A stretch of 39,893 nucleotides of DNA from Candidatus Uhrbacteria bacterium RIFCSPHIGHO2_12_FULL_60_25 (GTDB lineage Bacteria > Patescibacteriota > Patescibacteriia > 2-12-FULL-60-25), in NCBI GenBank assembly GCA_001791275.1, contig MGEH01000002.1, positions 1-39,893 of the forward strand, in the 5' to 3' direction. The notes under the pieces are model-generated. The model was not told where the DNA came from. It did not search any database and was given only the letters and a program-made list of their open reading frames with translations. Shown here in pieces: positions 2,254 to 3,056 of this stretch; position 1 is the stretch's first letter, and every line of letters starts with the position of its first letter. A program made the translations under genes and the position numbers.

Positions 2254-2290
2254 AGTCCCCGTAGGGACGGAACCCTACGAGGATCTTTTC
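2254..2290 (-). terminator. Hairpin terminator between convergent leuS and the toxin gene, possibly bidirectional
   Basis: CGTAGGG-acggaa-CCCTACG stem. Minus strand continues GGGGACTTTTTCTTTT; plus strand continues GGATCTTTTC. Confidence 0.65.
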
Positions 2291-2308: not shown

Positions 2309-2650
2309 TCATACCACTCTCGATCGTAGTTCGAGAAGAGTCTGTTGCAGATGGTCGTTGATCTCTTTTTTTGACATGGAGATCCTATCACTCTTGAAAT
2401 AGATGGTGATAGGAACGAGAAAGCCTTCTGATTCCACCATGAGGATCACCAAACGGAATGACTTACTTTTCCCTTTTGGAAGACTCTTGATCTTGAGTCG
2501 TATTTTATAAACGCTGCCGCCAAGATGATCGTGTTGACGGGCATCAAACCGTTCAAGGGTTTCAATGATCGCATCTTTGAGGTCGTGATGCTTTTTTACA
2601 AACGGCTTTAGCTGACGTTTAAAATGGTCAAGAACGATCGTCTGATACAG
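2309..2650 (-). CDS. RelE/ParE-superfamily-like toxin; not in the ORF track; no ATG/GTG/TTG start near the 5' end (nearest candidate CTG at 2650)
   Basis: Minus-strand frame continuous from the antitoxin TAG (2660-2662) to TGA (2309-2311): HIGLYQTIVLDHFKRQLKPFVKKHHDLKDAIIETLERFDARQHDHLGGSVYKIRLKIKSLPKGKSKSFRLVILMVESEGFLVPITIYFKSDRISMSKKEINDHLQQTLLELRSRVV*. It resembles RelE-type toxins and sits next to an RHH antitoxin. Confidence 0.75.
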   Translation of the reverse strand: MYQTIVLDHFKRQLKPFVKKHHDLKDAIIETLERFDARQHDHLGGSVYKIRLKIKSLPKGKSKSFRLVILMVESEGFLVPITIYFKSDRISMSKKEINDHLQQTLLELRSRVV

Positions 2651-2659
2651 ACCGATGTG

Positions 2660-2914
2660 CTAAACGTCTTCCAGTTGCGTTTTTATGTTTGGCAGCGTTT
2701 TGCCTTTGTGGCCATGCGTGATCTCGTGTTGTAGCGTTGCACTCAGGAAGTTAAAACGTTCGTCTTCTGTCGCAAATGGTTTTTGGACGATATCCAAAAA
2801 ATGGACGGCTGCAAAACGAAAAAATTCGGCTTTGCTGGCAAATCCTTTTTCTTTTATCGTCTTATTGATCCGCTTTTCAAGGGTCTCTGGAACAGCAAAA
2901 TTGATAATGGCCAT
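2660..2914 (-). CDS. Ribbon-helix-helix antitoxin-like protein
   Basis: 84 aa, MAIINFAVPETLEKRINKTIKEKGFASKAEFFRFAAVHFLD: RHH/CopG-like N-terminus, directly upstream of the toxin-like frame. Confidence 0.8.
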   Translation of the reverse strand: MAIINFAVPETLEKRINKTIKEKGFASKAEFFRFAAVHFLDIVQKPFATEDERFNFLSATLQHEITHGHKGKTLPNIKTQLEDV

Positions 2915-2928
2915 ATTATTATTATATG

Positions 2929-2947
2929 GATTCGATGTTGATTCGAT
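2929..2947. promoter_or_regulatory. Candidate antitoxin operator: direct repeat GATTCGAT-gtt-GATTCGAT (11-bp period)
   Basis: Two identical octamers one helical turn apart, just upstream of the antitoxin start. Confidence 0.5.
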
Positions 2948-3056
2948 ATATTAAAGTTTAATAGTCTCAATCAGAGAAGTCAATGCGATTGTGATTTAGC
3001 TACATTGAGCCAAATAATTTTGAGTAAATTAGCTACATTTTGGCTGTAAAGCACTC

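Follow-up and report, generated by a model that had tools for sequence, protein, structure and literature searches.

An antitoxin-first RelE-superfamily operon of Candidatus Uhrbacteria with CTG at the position of the toxin start codon

RelE and HigB proteins are ribosome-dependent mRNA interferases. The locus described here, part of a stretch of 39,893 nucleotides from a Candidatus Uhrbacteria contig (the window), resembles RelE-superfamily type II modules (PF06296) in its toxin family, in its two-gene operon with the antitoxin upstream, and in its upstream promoter and palindromic element; unlike them, its toxin start reads CTG. The nearest solved sequences are those of HigB-2 toxins (e.g. 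5ja8), to which the match is marginal (E about 0.04). Homologous modules in other Patescibacteria-like genomes share with it a conserved toxin, an antitoxin directly upstream (16 of 17) and, in the closest of them, a -35 box, but differ in that the toxin starts with ATG in all; among themselves they vary in their stop codons, their spacing and their relative frames. Weak or non-canonical start codons that limit toxin synthesis have already been described for type I toxin genes (PMC8167048); those systems, however, are regulated by RNA, whereas the window pair is of type II and its weak start is found in a single genome. Among known systems the locus takes its place as an ordinary RelE-superfamily type II pair, and there is no sign of a new mechanism based on readthrough.

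Read on the minus strand, the antitoxin-like frame ends in ...QLEDV-TAG (TAG at 2660-2662) and then stays open for 116 codons, as HIG-CTG-YQTIVLDHFKRQLKPF..., up to a TGA at 2309-2311, so that the frame shared across the TAG, as reported in a preliminary description of this DNA, is confirmed. The same description placed the first ATG, GTG or TTG at about residue 71; the long stretch devoid of such codons is indeed there, and its first TTG (2450-2452) lies at codon 67 when numbering begins at the CTG and at residue 70 when it begins at the TAG. The toxin of one homologue, L007, is likewise without an alternative start until codon 67, and judged by this comparison the stretch is nothing peculiar. 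Upstream of the antitoxin, a TTGACA box and, behind it, an AT-rich element (consensus TATATAnAATCAATATnTAATCCATATA) recur in 11 aligned modules (2895-3010 in the window, minus strand) and are likely a common promoter-operator; the element of the window itself (Table 1) is likely an autoregulatory operator. A promoter, a terminator and the conserved operator-like element are thus all present, which counts for an ordinary operon. The window also carries, on the plus strand at 14-2245, a leucyl-tRNA synthetase gene cut by the contig edge, in which a NUDIX domain (Pfam 1.9e-9, residues ~200-293) lies between the editing- and catalytic-domain matches.

Table 1. Features of the toxin-antitoxin locus, in window coordinates
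Feature	Position	Strand	Remarks
Promoter-like site TTGACT-17-TAAACT	2955..2983	-	-35 box resembles TTGACA and is conserved ahead of the antitoxin genes of homologous modules
Conserved AT-rich element reaching from upstream across the antitoxin start	2911..2950	-	includes palindrome 2911-2929
Antitoxin gene	2660..2914	-	84 aa from ATG to TAG; weak family evidence for an RHH/CopG-like protein
Gap between antitoxin stop and toxin start, CACATCGGT	2651..2659	-	9 nt; the 22 nt that precede the start hold Shine-Dalgarno matches of at most 3 nt
Start-codon hairpin GUCUG-UAU-CAGAC	2640..2652	-	5 bp; folds at -5.0 kcal/mol in an 18-nt segment
CTG at the exact ATG start position of homologues	2648..2650	-	alignment to homologues
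RelE-superfamily toxin gene	2309..2650	-	113 aa when read from CTG, ending in TGA; no family-invariant residue lost
Intrinsic-terminator-like hairpin, then T tract, 3' of the toxin	2256..2283	-	

The frame downstream of the TAG had been called a RelE-like toxin, and this assignment is borne out by a match to Pfam RelE PF06296 of 30.4 bits over residues 16-102, against a curated cut-off of 27 bits; 11 of 12 aligned family members match the same family. Over its full length the window toxin is ~40-58% identical to homologues in other genomes, and in 10 other loci the toxin is accompanied by a conserved antitoxin, 37-54% identical to that of the window. The Pfam match, the full-length homology and the conserved adjoining antitoxin together argue that the toxin frame is an intact coding frame and not a product of chance. 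Every invariant residue of the 12-member toxin alignment, the window being one of the 12, is kept, and, more tellingly, in a leave-one-out profile the window toxin scores 152 bits (family range 109-164), above the median and in the upper part of the range, which gives no signal of decay. The antitoxin is equally normal, scoring 116 bits in the corresponding test (range 97-131). Its earlier label as an RHH protein is weakly supported: RHH_1 is matched by 2 of 11 antitoxin family members, with a best E of 5.5e-4, and the window copy matches no Pfam family.

The module is present as a single copy in its genome (979 kb in 37 contigs, 95% complete) and is patchily distributed, occurring in 12 of 389 genomes of the class with its own genome included. 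None of the 40 other genomes searched in the same order, three of the same genus among them, carries it; one record bearing a homologue is a Candidatus Parcubacteria MAG. With a GC content of 43% against 60% for the genome, the module was likely acquired horizontally. A scan of viral contigs with the toxin and its alignment gave no relative, a search of plasmids gave only distant matches (30-39% identity), and PADLOC gave no match.

How, then, does the start of this toxin compare with those of its relatives? By searching whole genomes and genome contigs we gathered 17 homologous loci in which the 5' end of the toxin gene is complete (L002-L007, L009-L013, L015, L017-L020, L024). The toxin starts with ATG in all 17, and this ATG coincides exactly with the window CTG in 15, being one codon earlier in one locus and one codon later in another. 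Because homologues carry an ATG in the column of the CTG, the toxin possesses an independent start and need not be entered from the antitoxin. It was this outcome, an ATG at the CTG position, that the preliminary description had itself named as a refutation, and the alignment shows the window to carry a variant codon where the start ordinarily lies. Of the three options raised at the time, initiation at CTG and decay of the start codon both keep their place, as the CTG sits where homologues have ATG; UAG readthrough is not supported. Our literature search, limited in coverage and thus weak evidence, found no toxin of a toxin-antitoxin system described with a CUG start. A codon-usage scan of the genome found no second coding gene devoid of a start: it returned 77 ORFs in which 30 or more codons precede the first standard start, the leaders of many looking non-coding, and six of those with better coding scores gave no match to Pfam. 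The initiator tRNA of this genome (L098, G000:C12:8141-8216, minus strand, outside the window) has a C1-A72 mismatch, and A29-U41 replaces G29-C41 in its anticodon stem; a CCAGG/CCTGG stem is shared by 18 of the 30 loci compared, L098 being one of them. We rejected a special initiator tRNA as the cause of the CTG, the A29-U41 variant being common among relatives and hence a lineage trait.

The locus thus holds an operon in which an intact toxin has CTG at the ATG position and stands in no conserved frame relation to its antitoxin. Our preferred reading, to which we give a probability of about 0.52, is that of an antitoxin-first RelE-superfamily type II operon in which CTG has replaced ATG, the two proteins are made separately, and weak reinitiation at CUG keeps the ratio of toxin to antitoxin low. 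Ribosomes that stop at the UAG of the antitoxin would, in a few cases, reinitiate at the CUG 9 nt downstream, so that toxin output would be weak and the toxin-to-antitoxin ratio low; like other RelE and HigB proteins, the toxin would presumably act as a ribosome-dependent mRNA interferase. The spacing between antitoxin stop and toxin start ranges from -8 to +21 nt in homologues, and a strong Shine-Dalgarno sequence precedes the toxin in none of the 11 modules examined, the best match being 5 nt long at 13-14 nt from the start; in the window no match longer than 3 nt lies within the 22 nt upstream. Such poor sites, together with the short spacing, suggest that the whole family couples translation of the two genes by termination and reinitiation. 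Reinitiation in E. coli becomes weaker as stop and start move apart (1, 4, 7 and 40 nt were tested) and is down to background at 40 nt (PMC2268962). CUG makes up 0.024% of bacterial start codons, and initiation at CUG in E. coli yields 0.86% of the output from AUG (PMC11497404). The hairpin around the start codon and the absent Shine-Dalgarno sequence would lower initiation further, and toxin production is probably weak or absent.

Readthrough of the UAG, giving an antitoxin-toxin fusion and thereby coupling the levels of both, was put forward in the preliminary description as a mechanism not recognised among described toxin-antitoxin systems. Its attraction lies in the frame common to both genes across the TAG, which is interrupted by no other stop. 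This arrangement is not conserved, however: among the 16 homologues in which an antitoxin was found, the toxin is in the antitoxin frame in four, with TAG as the stop in two and TAA in the other two, a proportion about the same as the one in three expected, and the shared frame of the window, too, is what chance alone would yield. In four other homologues the toxin starts before the antitoxin stop, and where the genes overlap in this way readthrough cannot join them; moreover, all relatives have a toxin start position of their own. Furthermore, prfA, the gene for release factor 1, is present in the genome above the cut-off, TAG terminates 112 of 413 long genes or ORFs as an ordinary stop, and no amber-suppressor tRNA with a CUA anticodon is found among the 44 tRNAs, in a survey of TAG usage and tRNA content covering ~974 kb of the 979 kb genome. 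Reassignment of TAG is rejected on the same three grounds. Readthrough is accordingly hardly credible to us, and the claim of an undescribed mechanism falls together with it.

At the level of the sequence, a silenced gene, weak use of CUG and an error in the consensus base look alike, and with no relative above 58% protein identity, the closest found, the comparison can neither date the change from ATG to CTG nor test whether the CTG is conserved. A recent ATG-to-CTG mutation may in effect have shut the toxin off, so that a working antitoxin is followed by a gene that is intact but not translated; ATG is kept by all homologues, CUG is a very poor start (PMC11497404), no Shine-Dalgarno sequence is present, and a hairpin surrounds the start codon. 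In addition, from its absence in the other genomes searched in the order and from its GC content, the module looks recently acquired, maybe without strong selection. Against this, there is no second lesion, and the full-length frame, the invariant residues and a normal profile score are all retained, so that decay, if real, must be recent; we hold it to be a tentative alternative, possible and less probable than weak translation. Alternatively, the true base could be A and the start an ordinary ATG. The window codon is one substitution away from that of every homologue and the 37-contig assembly is probably metagenomic, but a lone A-to-C transversion away from a homopolymer run is an atypical class of error, and we think such an error rather unlikely. 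More doubtful still is that selection has made the CTG, with the hairpin it creates, into a throttle on a type II toxin, the CUG being accessible only to ribosomes that have just finished the antitoxin, so that a very low toxin-to-antitoxin ratio is fixed. The hairpin is lost in the 18-nt segment when AUG takes the place of CUG, but once 30 nt of upstream and 40 nt of downstream sequence are included, the folds with CUG and AUG differ by only 1.4 kcal/mol, so that little weight can be placed on it. From these comparisons a weakly translated toxin appears to be the most likely state, with recent silencing as the main alternative and a base error also possible.

For the annotation of such modules, the locus illustrates how a single substitution in a start codon hides an intact toxin from ORF callers and leaves what appears to be an orphan antitoxin; a homology check that allows alternative starts would recover genes hidden in this way. 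If the CUG is used, this pair would moreover provide a type II example of toxin control through a weak start codon.
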